Origin: Ornithinibacillus caprae | GTDB lineage: Bacteria; Bacillota; Bacilli; Bacillales; Amphibacillaceae | Reading direction: 5' to 3' | Length of the DNA stretch: 64,000 bases | NCBI RefSeq assembly: GCF_009728145.1 | Contig: NZ_WOCA01000001.1 | Span: 62,001 to 126,000 of the forward strand | In this document: in pieces, positions 6,592 through 16,327 of the stretch | How positions within the stretch are numbered: position 1 is the first letter of the stretch | Layout: every line of letters begins with the position of its first letter | Notes under the pieces: generated by a model | Databases searched by the model: none | Told to the model about the DNA's origin: nothing | The model's input: the letters and a program-made list of their open reading frames with translations, nothing else | Made by a program: the position numbers and the translations under genes

Positions 6592-7272
6592 TTGAGAGTA
6601 TCATACCATGGACATTCAGTTGTACAGGTGAAAACAAAGAAACATACAATATTGATCGATCCATTTATTTCTGGAAATGAAGCATGTGATTTGGATGCAA
6701 ATACAGTAGAGGCAGATGTGATTCTTTTAACGCATGGTCATAACGACCATGTAGGAGATACCGTTGATATTGCCAAAAGAACAGGTGCCTTGGTGGTTGC
6801 TCCTAATGAATTAGCAGTTTATTTAGGTCAAAAGGGAATTAATACACATCCAATGCATATAGGAGGAGCACGTGATTTTGATTTCGGAAGGGTGAAATTT
6901 ACGCAAGCATTTCATGGATCTTCCTATACCGAAGAGGATGGCTCCATTATATATACAGGAATGCCAGGTGGAATACTATTTACAGTAGAAGGGAAAACAA
7001 TTTATCACTTAGGTGATACGGCCCTTTTCACCGATCTAAAAATGTATGGTGAAATGAATGAAATTGATCTAGCGTTTATTCCAATTGGTGATAACTTTAC
7101 AATGGGACCAGAGGATGCAGTGATTGCGGCTGACTGGATACAAGCAAAAGTGGTAGTTCCGGTACATTATAATACGTTTCCTGTAATTGAACAGGATCCT
7201 AAAGAATATGTTCAGAGAGTAAACACGGGTGAAGCTCGTGTTCTATCTATAGGAGAGTCAATCCAGTTATAA
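6592..7272 (+). CDS. ytkL: metallo-beta-lactamase-fold hydrolase YtkL (UPF0173)
   Basis: TTG 6592 with AAAAGGAGAG upstream gives 226 aa, the usual UPF0173 length; a longer in-frame extension to 6409 runs through the pspA terminator and is not used. The metal-binding signature [10 protein letters not shown] (HxHxDH) is near residue 47, with further metal His and Asp in FHGSSYT, HLGDT and PVHYNTFP. Members bind two metal ions; the substrate is unknown. It lies in its Bacillus neighbourhood next to ald and moaB. Confidence 0.9.
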
Positions 7273-7309
7273 CAAAAAAACGTGAGCAACAGCTCGCGTT
7301 TTTTTGTTA
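7271..7309. terminator. bidirectional terminator ytkL / solenoid pilin
   Basis: AACAAAAAAACGTGAGC and GCTCGCGTTTTTTTGTT pair around AACA; usable in both directions between convergent genes. Confidence 0.85.
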
Positions 7310-7318
7310 TGTTTTTTT

Positions 7319-8170
7319 TCAATTACATCCTAATATATGAGTAAAGTCTTCTTCTTTTAAGCCATTATGGAATATAGTATTTCCTTTAACACAAATTTTC
7401 CCACTGTTACCCTGTTGTGAAAATTCCTTATAAAAATGAGCGTCATTTTCAACAATTAGTTGGGAATTATTTTTTAATGTAATTTCACTATCAAAATGAG
7501 CGTTACCATCTACTTGAAGAATAGAACCGTTCTTTAATTCAAGTGTTTTGGTCGGATCATAAACATATAAGTCATCACTTATTATAAAATGAACCGAATT
7601 GTAAAGAGAAAGGTTTCCTTTAATATTTGCATCACCGTTTACCAAATATATATCATCTTTACAGATGTTTTTCTTAAATTTGATAAAACCACTAGGGCTA
7701 TCAGCAATAAAAGTTGGGTTGGTAAAAATACAGTCAGCAACATCTACTCCTTCTTCATTGTCTATGGAGATGTCTAAGACATAACTATTCTTCGATGTGA
7801 ATGTGGTCTCTAAGGAAAAGTCAGTAATTGTAGATGAAATTTTAATAGATAATGGAGAAGATGAATCAACATCCTGTATACAATTTTCTACGACAGCACC
7901 GTTCTCATTTCGTACCTCTATATAATATTTTTCATCGAGTTGAGTGCTACAAAGTTGTGAATTCCCCTCTAAAAATTGCGATCTTAATTCAGACACAATC
8001 ACATTCACTCGTTGATTACGATCTATGTGTTCCGAAGTCACGGTATTATTTCCTAATACTTGGAAAATTACCGTTGATGCTAAAAGAATAACCACTGCAA
8101 AAAGACTTATTGTTGCAAGTAATTCTACTAAGGTTATCCCTCTTTCTAGTCTAAATTGTCGAAATATCAT
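7319..8170 (-). CDS. pilin-like protein with C-terminal repeat (predicted beta-solenoid) domain
   Basis: The ATG at 8170 is chosen over the in-frame TTG at 8185 because it gives a normal prepilin leader. The protein is 283 aa. Leader MIFRQFRLERG is followed by ITLVELLATISLF: class III signal, cleavage after Gly11, Glu at mature position 5, hydrophobic helix. A globular part follows, then from about residue 195 four units of about 21 residues with the pattern N(G/N)SxLxVxGNAHFxxxIxLK, as expected of a parallel beta-solenoid. Six Cys in the exported part could form disulfides. It is divergent from the pilus operon, 65 bp away, so it is probably a minor or tip pilin, perhaps an adhesin. Confidence 0.8.
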   Translation of the reverse strand: MIFRQFRLERGITLVELLATISLFAVVILLASTVIFQVLGNNTVTSEHIDRNQRVNVIVSELRSQFLEGNSQLCSTQLDEKYYIEVRNENGAVVENCIQDVDSSSPLSIKISSTITDFSLETTFTSKNSYVLDISIDNEEGVDVADCIFTNPTFIADSPSGFIKFKKNICKDDIYLVNGDANIKGNLSLYNSVHFIISDDLYVYDPTKTLELKNGSILQVDGNAHFDSEITLKNNSQLIVENDAHFYKEFSQQGNSGKICVKGNTIFHNGLKEEDFTHILGCN

Positions 8171-8235: not shown

Positions 8236-8664
8236 ATGTATCAAAAATTATATGAAAATAATAATGGGTTTACCCTTATTGAAATTATAGCATCAATTGC
8301 TATTTTAGGCATGGTAATTGCGGTATTTTTACCTATTTTCCCGCAAATTATGCAATGGTCGAACAATGCAGATGATGAATTAGTTGCTAGTAACTTACTA
8401 GGTCAAGTGACCTATGATATAAAACAACTACCATTAGTAGATTCAACAACCATTAATAGCTGTCCCGATATGAAAACAATTACTGGATTAGATTCGTTGG
8501 GAGAATCTGCAACGTACGTACTTAATAATCGAGAATATAGAATTGAATTAAACATATGTCAGGAAATTGATGTGGATTTATATCGTACGAATATACGGAT
8601 ATATTCACCAGATCATAAGCTAGTGAGTGAATCATACACATATATAGGTGAGAGCAATGAATAG
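8236..8664 (+). CDS. type IV minor prepilin (PulG/PilV-like)
   Basis: ATG 8236 lies 8 bases after TAGGGAGTGA; the upstream GTG falls inside that site. The 142-aa product has leader MYQKLYENNNG and mature start FTLIEIIASIAILGMVIAVF, the prepilin N-methylation motif with Glu5. Two Cys are in the C-terminal half (NSCPD, NICQE). It opens the plus-strand pilus operon and overlaps the next gene by 8 bases, indicating translational coupling. Likely a minor pilin that primes assembly. Confidence 0.85.
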   Translation: MYQKLYENNNGFTLIEIIASIAILGMVIAVFLPIFPQIMQWSNNADDELVASNLLGQVTYDIKQLPLVDSTTINSCPDMKTITGLDSLGESATYVLNNREYRIELNICQEIDVDLYRTNIRIYSPDHKLVSESYTYIGESNE

Positions 8665-9088
8665 GTTTAGAAACGAATCTGGAGCAGCTTTAGTACTAAC
8701 ATTGATGATTATTACATTAATTCTGTTATTCGTTCTAACCCTTTTTTATCAAATAGCGAATACAACAAAACAGGTTACTACAATGGAAAAACAAATCATT
8801 TCAGAACAGATTGCAGAAATGGGAGTTGACTATTACCGGTCATATACAAAAGCCACTATACCTGAAACCATTTCTGCCTCTAGCGAAATTCTACTTCCAG
8901 ATATAGAACTACAAGAAGAAGTAATCCTTGATTCAGAAGGAAAATTTAAATATTGGATTGAAACCCAGGAAATTGCAACACGATCTGAAAATGAAATCAT
9001 GATAAACTTTACGACTGTCGGTGAAGCATACGGAAAAATAACAACTATTGATTCGTCTATTACCATACAAATAGAAAGTGGGGAATAA
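8657..9088 (+). CDS. PilX-like pilus assembly pseudopilin
   Basis: A 143-aa product from ATG 8657 (AGGTGAG upstream). After a short basic stretch it reads ESG|AALVLTLMIITLILLFVLTLF, the degenerate type III signal typical of PilX_N or GspK-like minor pilins; the usual Glu5 is absent. The rest is a soluble domain without Cys. The lack of Glu5 is known for tip or priming subunits of related systems. It ends one base before the PilB start, so it is translated as part of the operon. Confidence 0.75.
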   Translation: MNRFRNESGAALVLTLMIITLILLFVLTLFYQIANTTKQVTTMEKQIISEQIAEMGVDYYRSYTKATIPETISASSEILLPDIELQEEVILDSEGKFKYWIETQEIATRSENEIMINFTTVGEAYGKITTIDSSITIQIESGE

Positions 9089-9089
9089 A

Positions 9090-10712
9090 ATGCCTACACG
9101 AAAAAGATTAGGTGATCTGTTAGTAGAAGCTGGACTTGTAGCTGAGGGGCAAATTAACGAAACCATAGAACATAAACGACGTGATCAAAAGCTAGGGGAT
9201 GCACTACTAGAACGTGGGTTTATTACGGAACGACAATTAATTGAAGTTCTAGAATTTCAATTAGGTATTCCTCATGTATCCTTATATCAATATCCAATAG
9301 ATGAACGGGTGTTAGGGTTTGTATCACAGGAAGTAGCACAAGAAAATTATATTATGCCACTAAAAATACAGGATAATGAAATGATGCTCGCGATGAAGGA
9401 TCCAATGGATTACTATGTTATCGATGATTTGGAATTATCGACTGGTCTAAGTATCTCGCCAGTTATCGCATCGAAGGATGATATTTTATATGCAATTAAT
9501 AAGTATTATTTTAAAAATGATGGTGTTGAACTAGAAGGACAAGTTGATGATGATGAATCGCCAATTATTCATTTGCTGGATCAAATATTAACTACTGGTG
9601 TTCAATTAAAGGCAAGTGACATACATATTGACCCCCAGGAAGCAAGTGTTCAAGTTCGGTACCGAATCGATGGTCAATTAAGGTCTGAAAAGACAGTTTC
9701 AAAGCAATTTCAAAATTCGCTAATAGCAAGAATTAAGATATTAGCGGATTTAAATATTACACAATCTAGGTTACCACAGGATGGACGAATTAAAACTACA
9801 GTTGGTGTTACTCCTGTCGACCTAAGAATATCAAGTTTACCAACTGTTCATGGAGAGAAAATAGTTATTCGTATTTTGGATTTAAATAATGCACTGATGC
9901 AATTAAATGAGCTAAATTTCTCTGTCCAAAATCAAAAAAAATATAAACAACTAATTTCACAACCTTCTGGATTAGTTTTACTTACTGGACCAACCGGATC
10001 TGGTAAGACTTCAACCCTTTATGCCTCCATTAATCAATTAAACAAGGAAAACGTCAATATCGTTACGATTGAAGATCCTGTTGAATTTCAATTGGAAGGT
10101 GTTAATCAGGTTCAAGTAAACAGTACGGTTGGATTAACCTTTGCAAATGGCTTACGTTCAATCTTAAGACAAGATCCAAATATCATCATGATAGGTGAGA
10201 TTCGAGATCAAGAGACGGCGGAAATAGCGATTCGAGCATCTTTAACTGGCCATTTAGTGTTTAGTACCTTGCACACCAACAGTGCCTTAGATACGATACC
10301 TCGATTAATAGACATGGGAATTGAACCATATTTAGTCGTATCTTCTTTAAATGGAGTTGTAGCACAACGTTTAGTCCGAAAGATTTGTCGTGATTGTAAA
10401 ACTGAGCGAGAAGCAACCGCAATGGAAAAACAAATTTTTAAGAAAAATGGATTAAATGCAGAACATGTTTCCTATGGAAGTGGATGTAGCAGTTGTCATC
10501 ATCGTGGCTATCGTGGAAGGTTAACAATTCATGAAGTGTTAGTAATGGATGATCACATGAAAAGTATGTTACTCAATAACCGCTCTATTGCAGACATCCA
10601 CACCTATGCTAGAGATGAAGGAATGGAATTTTTAATCCATGATGGACTAGAGAAAATTAAATCAGGTTTAACAACAATGGAAGAAATTATGCAGGTTTCT
10701 ATTCGTATTTAG
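9090..10712 (+). CDS. pilB: type IV pilus extension ATPase PilB (GspE family)
   Basis: A 540-aa cytoplasmic ATPase that powers pilin polymerisation. The N-terminal MshEN domain spans about residues 1-150 (RKRLGDLLVEAGL). The catalytic core has Walker A GPTGSGKTSTLY near 300, Walker B IIMIGEIRDQETAEIA near 365, His box GHLVFSTLHTNSA, and the zinc tetracysteine pair CRDC...CSSC near 433-469. ATG 9090 follows GTGGGG, one base after the preceding stop. Domain order matches PilB rather than ComGA, which is shorter and lacks the MshEN domain. Confidence 0.95.
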   Translation: MPTRKRLGDLLVEAGLVAEGQINETIEHKRRDQKLGDALLERGFITERQLIEVLEFQLGIPHVSLYQYPIDERVLGFVSQEVAQENYIMPLKIQDNEMMLAMKDPMDYYVIDDLELSTGLSISPVIASKDDILYAINKYYFKNDGVELEGQVDDDESPIIHLLDQILTTGVQLKASDIHIDPQEASVQVRYRIDGQLRSEKTVSKQFQNSLIARIKILADLNITQSRLPQDGRIKTTVGVTPVDLRISSLPTVHGEKIVIRILDLNNALMQLNELNFSVQNQKKYKQLISQPSGLVLLTGPTGSGKTSTLYASINQLNKENVNIVTIEDPVEFQLEGVNQVQVNSTVGLTFANGLRSILRQDPNIIMIGEIRDQETAEIAIRASLTGHLVFSTLHTNSALDTIPRLIDMGIEPYLVVSSLNGVVAQRLVRKICRDCKTEREATAMEKQIFKKNGLNAEHVSYGSGCSSCHHRGYRGRLTIHEVLVMDDHMKSMLLNNRSIADIHTYARDEGMEFLIHDGLEKIKSGLTTMEEIMQVSIRI

Positions 10713-10723
10713 GGGGGATTTTT

Positions 10724-11761
10724 GTGAAGGAACAATTTAATCAATGGTTGAAGAATGCTTTTTTTAAGCAAGCTTCAGATGTACATTTAACTATTGGGAA
10801 AGCCCCTATATTTAGAATTAATGGGAAGTTGCTAGAGCAAGAATTGCCTAAATTATGTCCTAACGATTCGACTAAAATTGTACAATCTATTCTTCCAGAT
10901 GAGTTATGGAAAAAATTAGAGAGTGAACGAGAACTTGATTTTTCATATGGTATTCCCGGAATTTCAAGATTTCGTATCAATACCTTTTATCAACGTGGAG
11001 AGCTATCGTTAGCAATTCGAATTATACCAACAAGTATTCCTTCGATAGAGGAATTACACTTACCACCAGTTTCAAAGGAAATTGTACAGCAACCACAAGG
11101 GCTAGTGTTAGTTACCGGGCCAACTGGAAGTGGGAAAAGTACCACACTTGCATCGATGATTGATTATATGAATCAAACCATGCAGAAACATATTATTACA
11201 TTAGAGGATCCAATAGAGTACATGCATGCACATAAGCAATCTATTATTGACCAGCGTGAAGTAGGGTTTGATACGAATAGCTTTGTCAATGGATTAAGAT
11301 CGAGCTTGCGCCAGGATCCTGACGTGATTTTAGTTGGAGAGTTACGAGACTTGGAAACCATATCTACAGCAGTTACCGCTGCCGAAACAGGGCATTTAGT
11401 ATTAGGTACATTACATACCAAAGATGCTGTGTCTACGATTCAACGAATTATTGACGTATTTCCTAGTGAACAACAAACGCAAATTCGAATTCAGCTATCG
11501 TCGATTCTTAAATCTGTAATTTCGCAACGATTATTACTAACGAAGCACCATAACAGTCGAAGAGTAGCAACAGAAGTATTGATTAATACACCAGCAGTAA
11601 AAAATCTTATTCGTAATGACAAACTCCATCAAGTGCAAAATGTTCTGCAAACCTCTAAAGAACAAGGGATGCATACATTAGAGATGGATCTAAGAAGATT
11701 GATGCAGGAAGATGTTATTTCATTTGAAACAGCTTCTCCGTTTATGCAGGAAAGAGGTTAA
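10724..11761 (+). CDS. pilT: type IV pilus retraction ATPase PilT
   Basis: A 345-aa PilT-family ATPase. GTG 10724 follows AGGGGGGAT. Walker A GPTGSGKSTTLASM is near residues 132-145, the Asp box EDPIEYMH near 160, and AAETGHLVLGTLHTKDAVSTIQR near 217. No zinc tetracysteine and no N-terminal MshEN domain, which separates it from PilB. A dedicated retraction motor means the pili can be pulled back, allowing twitching, DNA uptake or surface sensing, unlike the ComG pseudopilus of B. subtilis. It sits between pilB and pilC. Confidence 0.94.
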   Translation: MKEQFNQWLKNAFFKQASDVHLTIGKAPIFRINGKLLEQELPKLCPNDSTKIVQSILPDELWKKLESERELDFSYGIPGISRFRINTFYQRGELSLAIRIIPTSIPSIEELHLPPVSKEIVQQPQGLVLVTGPTGSGKSTTLASMIDYMNQTMQKHIITLEDPIEYMHAHKQSIIDQREVGFDTNSFVNGLRSSLRQDPDVILVGELRDLETISTAVTAAETGHLVLGTLHTKDAVSTIQRIIDVFPSEQQTQIRIQLSSILKSVISQRLLLTKHHNSRRVATEVLINTPAVKNLIRNDKLHQVQNVLQTSKEQGMHTLEMDLRRLMQEDVISFETASPFMQERG

Positions 11762-11764
11762 TAA

Positions 11765-12964
11765 ATGAATTATCAATATTCTGGTAAACGTTTATCAGGA
11801 CAAAAGGTTAAAGGGAAAATCGATGCGGATTCAAAAAAAGAAGCATTAGAGCAGTTAGAGAAAAGCGGACTTATTATTATTGATATTGACGAAACAAAGC
11901 CGTGGAACAAGGATATCATCATTAATAAAAAAATAAAGAATGAGGACTTTGTTATTTTTCTTAGACAGTATGCAACATTAATTCATGCTGGTATTTCTAT
12001 ATCTGATGCAACAAAAACGATGAGCAAGCAAACGAATAATTATGCCTTGCGTACGGCATTAGATGATATAGATAAACAACTAGATCAAGGAATATCTCTG
12101 TCTGTTGCAGCTGAACGTCATCCTAAAATTTTTCCTAGCTTACTTGTTAACATGATCCACGCTGGAGAGGCAGCAGGAAAGTTGGATGATATTTTAAACC
12201 AGATGGCTGACTACTATGAAAAAGATCATCGAAATAAGCAAAAATTAGTATCGGCACTTATGTATCCTAGTGTAGTTGCAATTGTGACATTTTTCCTTAC
12301 ACTATTCCTTTTGGTATTTATTGTACCTCAGTTTGTAAGCATGTTTCACTCATTTGGGGAGGATATTCCTGCATATACACAATTCATACTAAACCTAAGT
12401 AACTTAGCTGGATCGTATTGGTGGGTTGTACTAATTGCAATTGGGATAGGGTTAGTTGGATACAAGTATTTCTTACAATATGATAGGTTTGCTTATCGGA
12501 TTGATTACTTGAAGCTAAAGTTCCCATTACTGGGTGTCTTAGTGCATAAAGGTGTTATGGTTAGAATGACCCAGACATTAAGTACATTGGTGAATAGTGC
12601 AGTACCAATTCTACAATCGGTAGAGATCACGGAGAGGGTTGTTGGAAATCAAGTAATTCGTGATGTTTTAGTCCATTCAAGAAAGTCATTAGAAAAAGGG
12701 GAATCCATCACTAAGCCAATGAAAGAACATTGGGCTTTTCCGGCGCTAGTTGTACAGATGATTCAAATTGGAGAAAAGACCGGGACATTAGATCACATGC
12801 TATTAAAGGCAGCGGAGTTTTATGAAGAAGAATTAAAACAATTGTCCAATCGAATTAAGACGTTGATTGAACCGTTAATGATTATTGTGTTAACTGTAAT
12901 TGTTGGAGGCATTATTGCTGCAGTTGTTATACCTATGTTCTCATTGTTCGAAAATATTCAATAA
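11765..12964 (+). CDS. pilC: type IV pilus inner-membrane platform protein PilC (GspF family)
   Basis: A 399-aa polytopic protein with two T2SSF domains. The first cytoplasmic domain contains FLRQYATLIHAGISISDA and the paired second copy MTQTLSTLVNSAVPILQSVE. Membrane segments lie near residues 170-190, 215-240 and 370-395. It links the ATPases to the growing pilus and extracts pilins from the membrane. ATG 11765 is 3 bases after the pilT stop, with AAAGAGG as ribosome site inside pilT. The operon pauses after this gene for a separate pilin promoter. Confidence 0.95.
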   Translation: MNYQYSGKRLSGQKVKGKIDADSKKEALEQLEKSGLIIIDIDETKPWNKDIIINKKIKNEDFVIFLRQYATLIHAGISISDATKTMSKQTNNYALRTALDDIDKQLDQGISLSVAAERHPKIFPSLLVNMIHAGEAAGKLDDILNQMADYYEKDHRNKQKLVSALMYPSVVAIVTFFLTLFLLVFIVPQFVSMFHSFGEDIPAYTQFILNLSNLAGSYWWVVLIAIGIGLVGYKYFLQYDRFAYRIDYLKLKFPLLGVLVHKGVMVRMTQTLSTLVNSAVPILQSVEITERVVGNQVIRDVLVHSRKSLEKGESITKPMKEHWAFPALVVQMIQIGEKTGTLDHMLLKAAEFYEEELKQLSNRIKTLIEPLMIIVLTVIVGGIIAAVVIPMFSLFENIQ

Positions 12965-13127: not shown

Positions 13128-13493
13128 ATGTTAAAGAAAATGAGGAAGAAGTTGAAGCAGGAGAAAGGGTTCACTCTAGTAGAACTATTAGCTGTAATAG
13201 CTATATTGGGTATTATTTTGGCAATTGCTATACCTACGATTGGTAACATAATTAGTAATTCAGAGAATGAAGCTAAAGAAGCTAATGTAAATCTGATATT
13301 AAATGCAGCTAGGTTAGCAGATGCAGCGGGTGAATTTAGTGGTGATAGTATGACTGTAGAAGAATTAAAAGAAGGGGGTTATTTAGATTCAGTTCCAGAA
13401 GTTCCTGGTACAGATGGGGATTATAGTACAGGTGAAGTAAAAAAAGAATCTAATGGAAAATTTTCGTACTCTGGACCTGGTGAGAGCGAATAA
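13128..13493 (+). CDS. pilA: type IV major pilin (PilA/ComGC-like)
   Basis: A 121-aa prepilin. Basic leader MLKKMRKKLKQEKG is cleaved before FTLVELLAVIAILGIILAIA, the textbook class III signal with Glu5 and hydrophobic helix. The mature part is short, acidic, cysteine-free and rich in Gly, Glu and Ser, ending DYSTGEVKKESNGKFSYSGP. AAAGGTGGG precedes ATG 13128. It is called the major subunit because it has the simplest structure, its own upstream leader and a weak terminator behind it; this is inference. Confidence 0.88.
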   Translation: MLKKMRKKLKQEKGFTLVELLAVIAILGIILAIAIPTIGNIISNSENEAKEANVNLILNAARLADAAGEFSGDSMTVEELKEGGYLDSVPEVPGTDGDYSTGEVKKESNGKFSYSGPGESE

Positions 13494-13576: not shown

Positions 13577-14329
13577 ATGGAGTTTTATATTACATTATTT
13601 GCTTTTTTCGGTCTCATCTTAGGCTCTTTTTTCAATGTTGTTGGCCTACGGGTGCCAAAAAAAAGACCATTTACCAATGATCGTTCCGTATGTCCGCATT
13701 GTAATCATACTCTGTCGTGGTATGAACTGATTCCAGTGTTATCATACATATTTCAAGGTGGTAAGTGTAGGAACTGTAAAAAAAGTATAGGCATCCTGTA
13801 TCCAGTCATCGAATTAGTAACTGGATTTTTATTTGCGTTTAGTTACGTACACTTTGGTATATCTATAGAATTAATCGTTGCTCTTTTATTAGTTTCTATG
13901 CTGGTCATTATAGTAATAACAGATATTAATTATATGCTAATTCCAAATAAAGTTTTGCTATTTTTCTTACCGCTCTTTATTATTCTGCGAGGGATAGAAC
14001 CTCTTGAACCGTGGTGGAGTTCATTAATAGGCGGGTTGATTGGATTTTGCTTGATCGCTCTTATTATTCTTATCAGCAATGGTGGAATGGGAGCAGGAGA
14101 TATGAAATTGTTTGCGGTTTTAGGGATTGTTTTAGGGGTAAATTTGGTTATTTTAACGTTTTTTTTAGCTAGTATTATTGGAGCTTTAGTAGGTATGATA
14201 CTACTATTACTTAGGATCATTGATCGTAAGCAACCCGTCCCATTTGGACCATATATTGTAGTTGCGGGACTTATTGCATATTTTTATGGTGAAACATTGA
14301 TCAGTTGGTATTTAAACATTTTAATGTAA
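13577..14329 (+). CDS. pilD: type IV prepilin peptidase and N-methyltransferase
   Basis: A 250-aa polytopic aspartic protease that cleaves prepilin leaders and methylates the new N-terminus. The N-terminal methylase domain has both zinc Cys pairs (CPHC 39-42, CRNC 64-67), showing it is the bifunctional form. Catalytic Asp residues are in VITDINYMLIP (about 116) and GMGAGDMKLF (about 175, GxGD motif). Its presence inside the locus makes the pilus system self-sufficient. Confidence 0.95.
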   Translation: MEFYITLFAFFGLILGSFFNVVGLRVPKKRPFTNDRSVCPHCNHTLSWYELIPVLSYIFQGGKCRNCKKSIGILYPVIELVTGFLFAFSYVHFGISIELIVALLLVSMLVIIVITDINYMLIPNKVLLFFLPLFIILRGIEPLEPWWSSLIGGLIGFCLIALIILISNGGMGAGDMKLFAVLGIVLGVNLVILTFFLASIIGALVGMILLLLRIIDRKQPVPFGPYIVVAGLIAYFYGETLISWYLNILM

Positions 14330-14341
14330 GTAGGTGATAGC

Positions 14342-15256
14342 ATGGGCTTAATGAATAATGGCAGGGTAAATATAGTGATCACAAATCAAGCTTTAAGGTA
14401 TTCCTATCACAAAAATCCATCTGTTGTTAGTATGATTACACATGGGGAAGTGGAGTTACCAGAAGGTACGATTGTGGACGGTATGGTCCAGAATAAAACT
14501 GTTTTTGAGGAGGTGGTACATAAGCTTGTCAAAGAAAATAAATGGAAGCGGAAAAAGCTTTACTTCTCTGTACCAGATGACACAGTAGTTATTCGGCAAA
14601 TACAAATACCTGTTTCTTTGACAAATGCCGAAGCGATTGGGTATATAAGGACACAAATTGGAAGTAGTATATATTTACCCTTTTCCAATCCATCATTAGC
14701 TGTTGATTTTATAGACGCTAGTGAGACAACTAGAAACGTACTGCTCTATGCGTACCCAAAGGAAAAAATTTCTGCTTATGAAGAAGTATTTGAGAAAAGC
14801 GGGTTGAGGCCTATTGTAGCTGATTTAACAGCATTATCGGTTTTCCGTTTTTATTATCAGCATAAACACGAAGAAAACGATCATGTGTTGTTGATTCATT
14901 GGAACAGGGATGGTCTTATATTAACAGCATTTCAACATGATAAAGCAGTTTTTACAAGACATATGAAAATTAATGGAAGAGAACCACAAGGAAATATAGC
15001 AGAGGAATCTGCAGAACAAACGATTAATGAATACATGATCGAAGTGAATCGTATTATTGACTTTTATCAATACTCGATTACAAAGGGACAATCTTCCATT
15101 GAACTGATTTTATTATCTGGGGACTACCCATCTTTACCTAGTGTAAGAAAGAACTTAACTGAGAATATATCTATTCCAGTCTTTCAATTCCCATTAGAAA
15201 AATTATCAATAAAGTATTTAGATGTCTTAGGTTTAGCATTGAAAAACGAAGGATAA
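14342..15256 (+). CDS. pilM: type IV pilus assembly protein PilM (actin-like)
   Basis: A 304-aa cytoplasmic protein recognised by position and by PilM-like features: VPDDTVVIRQIQIPV near residue 80, GYIRTQIGSSIYLPFSNPSLAVDF, and LLLIHWNRDGLILTAF-type ATPase-fold strands in the second half. PilM is an FtsA/actin-like protein that binds the N-terminal tail of PilN and couples it to PilB and PilC. It is slightly shorter than Gram-negative PilM. GTAGGTGAT precedes ATG 14342. Followed at 11 bases by pilN. Confidence 0.85.
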   Translation: MGLMNNGRVNIVITNQALRYSYHKNPSVVSMITHGEVELPEGTIVDGMVQNKTVFEEVVHKLVKENKWKRKKLYFSVPDDTVVIRQIQIPVSLTNAEAIGYIRTQIGSSIYLPFSNPSLAVDFIDASETTRNVLLYAYPKEKISAYEEVFEKSGLRPIVADLTALSVFRFYYQHKHEENDHVLLIHWNRDGLILTAFQHDKAVFTRHMKINGREPQGNIAEESAEQTINEYMIEVNRIIDFYQYSITKGQSSIELILLSGDYPSLPSVRKNLTENISIPVFQFPLEKLSIKYLDVLGLALKNEG

Positions 15257-15267
15257 GGGGGCTAACG

Positions 15268-15810
15268 ATGAATACAGAAATTAACTTTCTTGAAAAACAA
15301 CCAAAAAAATACATTGTTCCCCTTGTTTTTGGTATAATATTTCTTTTTCTGTTAGCAGTTGTACTAGTGGTTCTCGTTTACCAACAAAATCAGTATGTAA
15401 AATCCATAGAAGTTGATCAACATAGAGTAAGTCAAATGGAACAATCACTAAGAGAAAAAAATCAACAAAATGCAACTGTAGAGCATTTTAAAGAATTACA
15501 GGGATTGATTAGTGAAATAGAATATAATCATGTACCAAATGTAGCTTTATATAATGCTGTACTGGAATTATTAACATCACCGAATCAATTAACTAGCTTT
15601 ACCTACTCTGAAGGTAATCAATTCACAGTAGAAGCAAGCTTTAATCAGTTGGAGGATGTAGCTAATTATGTAGGAATGCTTTTAGACGAGATTTACATTA
15701 TTGATGCCGAATTATCAAATGTTTACCAAGCAGAAGAGAACTATCAAGCCACCTTAACCTTTGAAGTTGACGTCGACTCCATGAGAGAGGAGTTTAATCA
15801 TCGTGAATAA
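15268..15810 (+). CDS. pilN: type IV pilus alignment protein PilN
   Basis: A 180-aa bitopic membrane protein. The short cytoplasmic tail MNTEINFLEKQPKK holds the INFL motif that binds PilM. One membrane helix spans about residues 16-37, then a coiled-coil stalk and a ferredoxin-like domain. It overlaps pilO by 8 bases. In diderms PilN-PilO link to PilP/PilQ at the outer membrane; in this monoderm no such partners exist and the pair probably guides the pilus through the wall. Confidence 0.85.
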   Translation: MNTEINFLEKQPKKYIVPLVFGIIFLFLLAVVLVVLVYQQNQYVKSIEVDQHRVSQMEQSLREKNQQNATVEHFKELQGLISEIEYNHVPNVALYNAVLELLTSPNQLTSFTYSEGNQFTVEASFNQLEDVANYVGMLLDEIYIIDAELSNVYQAEENYQATLTFEVDVDSMREEFNHRE

Positions 15811-16327
15811 TTGGAAAAAATCATATACTTGGTTTTCGATAGGATTGATCTTATCTCTTGTTCTAGTTTATGGGATTAGTTATATAGTAATGTTGAAACC
15901 TCTTAAGGAAGAAATGCTATCCGTAGAAAAACAGGCTAATATGTTTGAAGAACAATATGAAGCCATCATTAATCGACCAAATGAAGAAACCGAGAACGAC
16001 GAATTTTCTAGAGTTACAAAAAAAATACCAAATGAAAAGTCGCCAGACGATGTAATATATAATCTTCAACATACTGCTGATGCTGCTGAAGTAAGTATAT
16101 CATCTATATCCTCGTTATCTCGGGGGGAAGAAGAGGAAGAATCTTCATTACGAGCCAACCATTATGCGTTAGAAATTGTAGGAAAGAATCTTGATCATGT
16201 AAATGAATATTTAGATTCTATTATGGATAGCGAACGATTAATTACCATTGATACGTTGGACGTACAACAGAGTGAGGAGTCTGTATCCCTTTCCATAACA
16301 ATTACAACCTATTACAAAGAAAGCTAA
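15803..16327 (+). CDS. pilO: type IV pilus alignment protein PilO
   Basis: A 174-aa bitopic protein with one membrane helix (about residues 9-29), an extracellular coiled coil rich in Glu, and a small alpha/beta domain (LEIVGKNLDHVNEYLDSIMD). The start is GTG 15803 overlapping pilN, with AGAGAGGAG as ribosome site in pilN. Same architecture as PilN, as expected of the heterodimer. Last gene of the pilus locus, closed by a clear terminator. Confidence 0.82.
   Translation: MNNWKKSYTWFSIGLILSLVLVYGISYIVMLKPLKEEMLSVEKQANMFEEQYEAIINRPNEETENDEFSRVTKKIPNEKSPDDVIYNLQHTADAAEVSISSISSLSRGEEEEESSLRANHYALEIVGKNLDHVNEYLDSIMDSERLITIDTLDVQQSEESVSLSITITTYYKES

Follow-up and report, generated by a model that had tools for sequence, protein, structure and literature searches.

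The gene at 7,319–8,170 in the window (the whole 64,000-nucleotide stretch of Ornithinibacillus caprae DNA that was analysed) probably codes for a modular minor pilin belonging to the adjacent pil-type type IV pilus (T4P): a ComGF/GspJ-type pilin bearing a disulfide-stabilised beta-solenoid that would act as an adhesin head at the pilus tip. The tip position, the disulfides, the adhesin function and a coupling of attachment to retraction are parts of this reading that we infer. Among relatives in the family the enlarged subunit is either this pilin (J) or another minor pilin (K), and exactly one of the two is enlarged in nearly every genome that could be assigned.

A minor prepilin gene beside a pilus operon

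An earlier first-pass annotation, made from the sequence alone, proposed a pilin gene divergent from a pilus operon. Both points stand: the minus-strand reading frame is a real prepilin gene encoding 283 residues, and the operon begins at 8,236 on the opposite strand (Table 1). The translation opens with MIFRQFRLERG followed by ITLVELLA and so carries a type IV prepilin leader, Gly11 preceding ITLVE with Glu5 in the hydrophobic helix. The N_methyl profile (PF07963) scores 19.9 bits on this protein, just short of its 21.2-bit cutoff, and exceeds the cutoff on relatives from loci L043 and L126. Cleavage, expected after Gly11, would leave a mature protein of 272 residues (30.2 kDa, pI 4.6); the alternative TTG start would add five residues. 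Leader, hydrophobic helix and pilin domain are followed by a C-terminal half with repeats. Searched against its own genome, the protein finds a single match at E ≤ 0.001, and a promoter scan around the gene gave results at chance level (6 found, 7.8 expected).

Table 1. Features at and around the long-J gene (positions counted from the first letter of the window)
Feature	Position	Strand	Basis and remarks
Terminator-like hairpin	7268..7311	plus	between pilin gene and convergent hydrolase-like gene; 1 found versus 0.4 expected from shuffles
Long-J minor prepilin gene	7319..8170	minus	283 aa; ATG at 8170, alternative TTG start at 8185
Residues 150–283, predicted beta-solenoid	7322..7723	minus	about five 20-residue turns; Cys170, Cys260, Cys282; boundary approximate
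Residues 128–149, low-confidence linker	7724..7789	minus	pLDDT <50 at 128–142; Cys147
Residues 12–127, ComGF/GspJ-type pilin module	7790..8137	minus	helix 14–67 plus strands; Cys74, Cys97; boundary approximate
Residues 1–11, prepilin leader	8138..8170	minus	sequence; N_methyl match; cleavage inferred
ComGE/GspI-like minor pilin (I), divergent partner	8236..8664	plus	N_methyl 28.5 bits; ComGE 33.5 bits, below cutoff of 49
Short K-like (PilX/GspK/ComGG-like) minor pilin	8648..9088	plus	146 aa ORF; K profile 120 bits
PilB-like assembly ATPase	9078..10712	plus	MshEN and T2SSE
Second T2SSE ATPase	10724..11761	plus	T2SSE match; size and order fit PilT
PilC-like platform protein	11765..12964	plus	T2SSF
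Putative major pilin	13128..13493	plus	121 aa; N_methyl 34.3 bits; ComGE 34.0 and ComGC 33.5 bits, both below cutoff
Prepilin peptidase-like protein	13577..14329	plus	named by appearance and position
PilM	14342..15256	plus	PF11104, 69.8 bits
PilN by position	15268..15810	plus	no family match over cutoff
PilO	15803..16327	plus	PF04350, 26.4 bits

The neighborhood is that of a T4P, with two T2SSE matches, T2SSF, PilM and PilO within 8.2 kb; the second ATPase is presumably PilT. The short K is recognized by a profile match between short and long K over 160 columns, other database matches to it being weak and below cutoff. A separate com locus elsewhere in the genome is marked by a match to ComGF (C11:358484) and by an ATPase of the T2SSE family (C11:361163). 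A further locus (L264, C11:257800-265500) encodes a CpaF-type ATPase and two TadB/C-like proteins; we call this locus at C11:~258 kb tad-like on the basis of gene order and appearance.

A 20-residue repeat and a predicted beta-solenoid

The annotation had described a repeat of about 21 residues in the C-terminal third. The repeat is real, but its period is 20, as judged from the peaks in self-identity and hydropathy and from a pooled echo at 40. Over the last 124 residues the best self-match among lags 16–25 falls at lag 20 (identity 0.173, equalled by 4 of 5,000 residue shuffles), and the autocorrelation of hydropathy is also maximal at 20 (10 of 5,000 shuffles). Forty long relatives show a mean self-identity of 0.124 at lag 20 and 0.101 at lag 40, the remaining lags from 8 to 44 giving 0.054–0.088; the first 140 residues of these relatives have no peak at lag 20. 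Two units fit the proposed motif NxSxLxVxGNAHF well (SILQVDGNAHF and SQLIVENDAHF), the others more loosely. Rather than a third, the repeat region takes up nearly the C-terminal half of the protein (∼150–283, confidently modelled from ∼171).

Structure prediction with AlphaFold2 drew on the window protein and on ten relatives from nine named loci (L040–L048; genera Paucisalibacillus, Ornithinibacillus, Virgibacillus, Oceanobacillus and Lentibacillus). The model of the window protein is modest overall (pLDDT 73.6, pTM 0.47); in it a long helix and a pilin sheet lead, by way of a weak linker (128–142), to short strands from ∼153 to 267. It is confident from ∼171, with pLDDT 82–91 in blocks over 171–250, and predicts about five turns of beta-solenoid after the pilin domain. 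A 402-residue relative from Oceanobacillus halotolerans (L043) is modelled with pLDDT 91–97 over 201–360, as a coil of nearly regular rungs of ∼20 residues with three strands per turn. It is in these predicted models that a pilin module and a separate folded module are seen. The suggestion of a beta-solenoid is therefore borne out by prediction for both proteins. A predicted structure lacking a solenoid, or close homologues lacking the repeat, had been named as grounds for giving it up; neither was found, since the solenoid is predicted and the repeat is present in homologues.

Foldseek returned no PDB chain at E ≤ 0.001 for the window or the L043 model. Re-examination of Foldseek's own match list (VIA-align) places Caldicellulosiruptor adhesin domains in the top rows for both models. 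The window model aligns with 4wa0 (annotated ‘possible adhesin’, which we take to be a tapirin) at Z 12.6 and 3.3 Å over 131 residues, and the L043 model with the tapirin 6n2c at Z 19.5 and 2.4 Å over 222 residues. Tapirins may be linked to T4P. The similarity is not peculiar to tapirins, the runners-up for L043 being close in score and of low identity (HMW1, Z 17.6; TibA, 16.5; an antifreeze protein, 16.4). The window model also aligns with the bactofilin filament 6rib (Z 9.9, 2.6 Å, 99 residues), below which come pectate lyases, a formylmethanofuran dehydrogenase subunit and ice-binding proteins at Z ∼6–9. As to ‘bactofilin-like’, the description used in the annotation, it is apt for the shape but not for the family, there being no match of the window protein to the bactofilin profile (PF04519) at E ≤ 1; two long-J relatives match that profile below its cutoff. 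Bactofilins are cytoplasmic polymers. Two structures presumably of the left-handed hexapeptide class, 5tyh (window) and 2pig (L043), align only at 12.2 Å rmsd, which suggests that the modelled coil is right-handed. A profile search of PDB sequences with alignment A4 gave no solenoid adhesin or tapirin among five rows at E ≤ 10, and no Pfam domain exceeds its cutoff on the solenoid module.

The protein has the six cysteines attributed to it (74, 97, 147, 170, 260 and 282). Cysteine number is even in all 40 long-J proteins, which come from 38 genomes: two in 4 proteins, four in 6, six in 27, eight in 2 and ten in 1. Such counts are as expected from disulfides and suggestive of them, although they overstate the evidence because the relatives are not independent. 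Of the 40, 35 have Cys74 together with Cys97 and five have neither; no protein has just one of them. The other two pairs lie in poorly aligned regions and are not confirmed by alignment column: for 147/170, 25 proteins have both cysteines, 11 have one and 4 have none, and for 260/282 the numbers are 4, 7 and 29.

Relatives of the gene and the type of its pilin domain

A search of genome contigs with the window protein alone found no relative, and the neighboring I pilin (alignment A2) was then used as an anchor. This led to nine named loci carrying a long-J gene (L040–L048) among the best 80 of 93 confirmed loci; the other 71 were weak matches (E 4e-7 or worse), mostly from other phyla to judge by their titles. 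At E ≤ 0.001 the window protein matches seven of 11 genomes of the genus, its own included, with identities to the genus relatives of only 21–31%. Alignment A1 matches 63 of 159 family genomes at E ≤ 1e-8, a good part of these matches being short J or other pilins, in frames of ∼120–180 residues, where the match is confined to the pilin domain or to its beginning. Because A1 also matches short J over the pilin domain, the module is best seen as an addition to a ComGF/GspJ-type pilin. In numerous genera of the family, long homologues lie next to the genes for I and K. Their mature length ranges from 236 to 597 residues, the number of rungs varying widely. In a class-wide sample, limited to at most six candidates per genome, 12 of 299 genomes match alignment A4 at E ≤ 1e-12; the frames are shorter than 160 residues in eight of these, the long ones being from the window, G276, G441 and G128.

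Sequence comparison assigns the pilin domain to the ComGF/GspJ (‘J’) type, with similarity over the whole domain found for the J group as opposed to the window protein alone. The latter scores 13.8 bits against the ComGF model (NF041002), whose cutoff is 80, and is thus ComGF-type rather than ComGF; alone, it matches the model over 10–90 at E 0.05. J pilins of T4P loci are matched by the ComGF model over positions 1–129 (G019), 1–128 (G024) and 1–126 (G025), and the long J of G128 over 1–136 (E 1.7e-4), all below cutoff; the model also matches, mostly below cutoff, in six of 14 control genomes. Profile alignment with hhalign spans 120 columns between short J and ComGF, but only 56 between long J and ComGF. 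From 20 loci, the ComG profiles used only 7 ComGF, 7 ComGE, 7 ComGD, 6 ComGC and 6 ComGG rows; the labels followed gene order and in some cases seem mistaken (e.g., L248 and L250).

Two tandem genes for long-J solenoid pilins occur in one locus each in Ornithinibacillus halophilus (L041:4851-6925, also L145) and in genome G011 (L120:3075-5803). In G092 (L128) the long-J gene is apparently broken, leaving three match pieces, one with a stop, and an open piece of 141 residues. The Oceanobacillus halotolerans locus contains two major-pilin-like genes in tandem (L043:11792-12951).

One of two minor pilins is enlarged

Pilus regions were collected by way of PilM. The profile PF11104 (PilM_2) matches in 129 of the 159 family genomes, and in six of the 14 control genomes, B. 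subtilis among them; it also matches a protein of ∼700–760 residues, which was left out. From the PF11104 matches listed, 84 regions with frames of ∼250–390 residues were picked by hand. The addition of 15 regions for genomes with minor pilins elsewhere, and of the window, L138 and L139, gave 102 regions from 87 genomes. Profiles from hand-picked seeds were used to assign I, J and K. Of the 87 genomes, 85 received an assignment for both J and K, G092 (broken J) and G013 yielding no I/J/K set. Genomes were classed as long-J (J ≥ 250 with K ≤ 200 residues) or long-K (J ≤ 200 with K ≥ 350), by cut-offs chosen after the lengths were known. A wide gap in length separates the two groups; lengths were counted from the first possible start and may be somewhat too long.

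Exactly one of J and K is enlarged in 84 of the 85 assigned genomes. The long-J class comprises 38 of the 85, with J of 262–646 and K of 126–192 residues; the long-K class (PilX/GspK-like) comprises 46, with J of 138–187 and K of 381–650 residues. None of the 84 classified genomes has both enlarged or both short. The one unclassified genome, G049, has a K of 155 residues, a J-like frame of 536 residues that scores only 40 bits, and an I-like frame of 789. This exception is probably a failure of assignment, the J profile having taken a probable major pilin. The divergent pil locus concerned (L208:7117-11583) encodes J-like and I-like pilins that are both enlarged. As two genomes hold two long-J genes each, ‘one head’ is to be understood as one kind of subunit.

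Of the long-K proteins, 14 were scanned for the nature of the module: DUF7305 is over its cutoff in eight and pAdhesive_15 (‘ice-binding-like’) in six. DUF7305-like sequence is also met on long J, with 26.4 bits against a cutoff of 27 in G020 (L121) and 17.0 bits in G003 (L007); the long J of G119 groups with these two by eye and in the J tree. Gene order in G020 (L173) and G119 (L170) is I-K-J, with the DUF7305-like module on J. In G019 (L191), from the same genus as G020, the order is I-J-K and the large protein is at K. An hhalign comparison of J and K modules gives E 8.2e-10 over 99 columns, and of the DUF7305-like J group with K 3.4e-8 over 58 columns; we do not accept these values as evidence of homology, both modules being repetitive.

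Phylogeny and the probable exchange of tip genes

All trees were quick ones, those of the pilins being built on short domains, and the result needs confirmation; G049, G036, G118, G045 and G072 form long branches in the PilB tree, as does G072 in the J tree. On the PilB tree, which has 84 rows, at least seven changes of the long-J label are needed, six of them forced by well-supported branches, and a single long-J clade is rejected (p-AU 1.75e-45). The J-pilin tree, in contrast, shows four label changes, one of them forced, and does not reject long-J as a single clade: the constrained tree even scores better, by 29 log units (p-AU 0.914). The I tree has two label changes. A sign test on independent pairs gave six of six (p 0.031).

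Since the J tree does not reject a single long-J clade, the reciprocity of J and K may stem from only one to four evolutionary changes. Repeated hopping of the module between J and K, our first reading of the PilB tree and of the sign test, was dropped as the main reading because the J tree allows one clade. Minor-pilin sets have probably been exchanged between pilus machines, given that a single long-J clade is rejected by the PilB tree but not by the J tree. The simplest reading of these sequence comparisons is that the long-J set arose once or a few times and came to be paired with different pilus engines. Both types occur within three genera: g7 (G020, G019), g3 (G012, G014) and g1 (window, G004, G007, G009). 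The J-I-K genes and PilB of G012 lie on different contigs.

From this we put forward a broader proposal, tentatively and with slightly more doubt than conviction: that T4P of Bacillaceae display one kind of bulky solenoid tip head, on J or on K and never on both; that the I-J-K set is an exchangeable tip cassette; and that new binding specificities are gained by swapping tip genes while the engine is kept.

Proposed function and alternatives

On the reading we favor, the prepilin peptidase would cleave the J-type N-terminal part, and J would assemble with minor pilins I and K into a complex that starts and caps the pilus. From the tip the solenoid would project as a rigid binding head, by which the cell would hold on to a polymer or surface outside it, after which the pilus would retract by means of the second ATPase. 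That the ligand is a polysaccharide is a guess. Placement in the tip complex with the solenoid outward is argued from analogy: the Com pilus of S. sanguinis, as modelled, has its filament capped by four minor pilins (ComGD, GF, GE and GG; PMC12153270), and bulky pilin modules have been argued to fit best at the tip in the cases of S. sanguinis PilB (PMC8179133) and ComZ (PMC6561018). By this analogy tip display of the solenoid is plausible.

The head might bind no ligand at all, being instead a structural cap or spacer that helps to start assembly or holds the tip parts off the cell surface. The variable number of rungs fits the loose constraint on an exact binding site that this would entail, and the four-minor-pilin tip complex is required for biogenesis of the Com pilus (PMC12153270). 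We nonetheless think it unlikely: one bulky subunit is retained in 84 of 84 classified genomes though its carrier differs, and the vWA module on S. sanguinis PilB is a tested adhesin (PMC8179133).

ComZ, a beta-solenoid pilin of Thermus, binds DNA (PMC6561018), and ComGF takes part in DNA capture by the Com pilus (PMC12153270), so the solenoid could likewise be a DNA receptor and the pilus serve DNA uptake. Against this, the genome has the separate com locus described above, and the solenoid module carries a net negative charge in 37 of 40 relatives and one of −8 in the window protein, which makes DNA somewhat less likely as the ligand. The charge is weak evidence, because the ComZ solenoid is also described as being without a positive patch (PMC6561018). 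On balance a DNA receptor seems to us quite improbable.

We give equally little credence to the solenoid being mainly an exposed, variable target on which diversifying pressure is exerted, for instance by phages using the pilus tip: the low identity among J proteins of the genus and the tandem (L041) and broken (L128) copies fit such pressure, but age alone may explain the divergence.

The family bears on how T4P come by new binding functions: it offers a natural series of predicted solenoid heads of differing length on one pilin frame, and the reciprocal division into J heads and K heads yields a prediction of the head's place within the tip complex. Should the tip genes indeed move as a set, swaps between laboratory strains would directly test whether the tip alone sets the target of adhesion.

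Comparison with known systems

The first-pass annotation knew of no described Bacillaceae pilin of this build. As a kind, such proteins are already known, from ComZ (PMC6561018) and from the modular pilins (PMC8179133); a Bacillaceae example was not found in the literature, as covered by top-ranked results judged on title or start of abstract and including few subscription papers. Pil operons are reported from Bacillus and Geobacillus species in a survey of Gram-positive T4P (PMC3244431).

The K-type pilins of other Bacillaceae that combine PilX_N with DUF7305 (PF23981) and pAdhesive_15 (PF20597) belong to the same kind of operon and are likewise enlarged minor pilins; their module, however, is on K rather than J, and the window protein matches neither domain at E ≤ 1. 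Tapirins, beta-helix adhesins that bind cellulose (PMC7142884), supply the best structural rows for the solenoid, although other solenoids are close and no sequence match was found. With bactofilins the beta-helix shape is shared. PilB and PilC of S. sanguinis resemble the window protein in having a grafted module on a pilin module, a proposed tip position and a monoderm T4P; their modules are vWA and concanavalin A-like (PMC8179133), whereas that of the window protein has no Pfam match over cutoff.

A close parallel is ComZ of Thermus thermophilus, in which a type IV pilin-like domain carries a large beta-solenoid argued to lie at the pilus tip (PMC6561018), as is predicted and proposed here. 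FfIBP (4nu2), a comparator of the ComZ solenoid, aligns with the window model at Z 8.3; the absence of ComZ itself from the VIA-align rows listed is no evidence of different folds. The two proteins differ in architecture. The ComZ solenoid, of ∼380 residues, is described as an insertion that separates the final two strands of a GspK-like pilin (PMC6561018), whereas the ∼134 predicted solenoid residues of the window protein follow a ComGF/GspJ-type pilin at its C-terminus. Modular pilins, and in ComZ one solenoid pilin, are thus already known; the reciprocity of J and K is the more surprising part.
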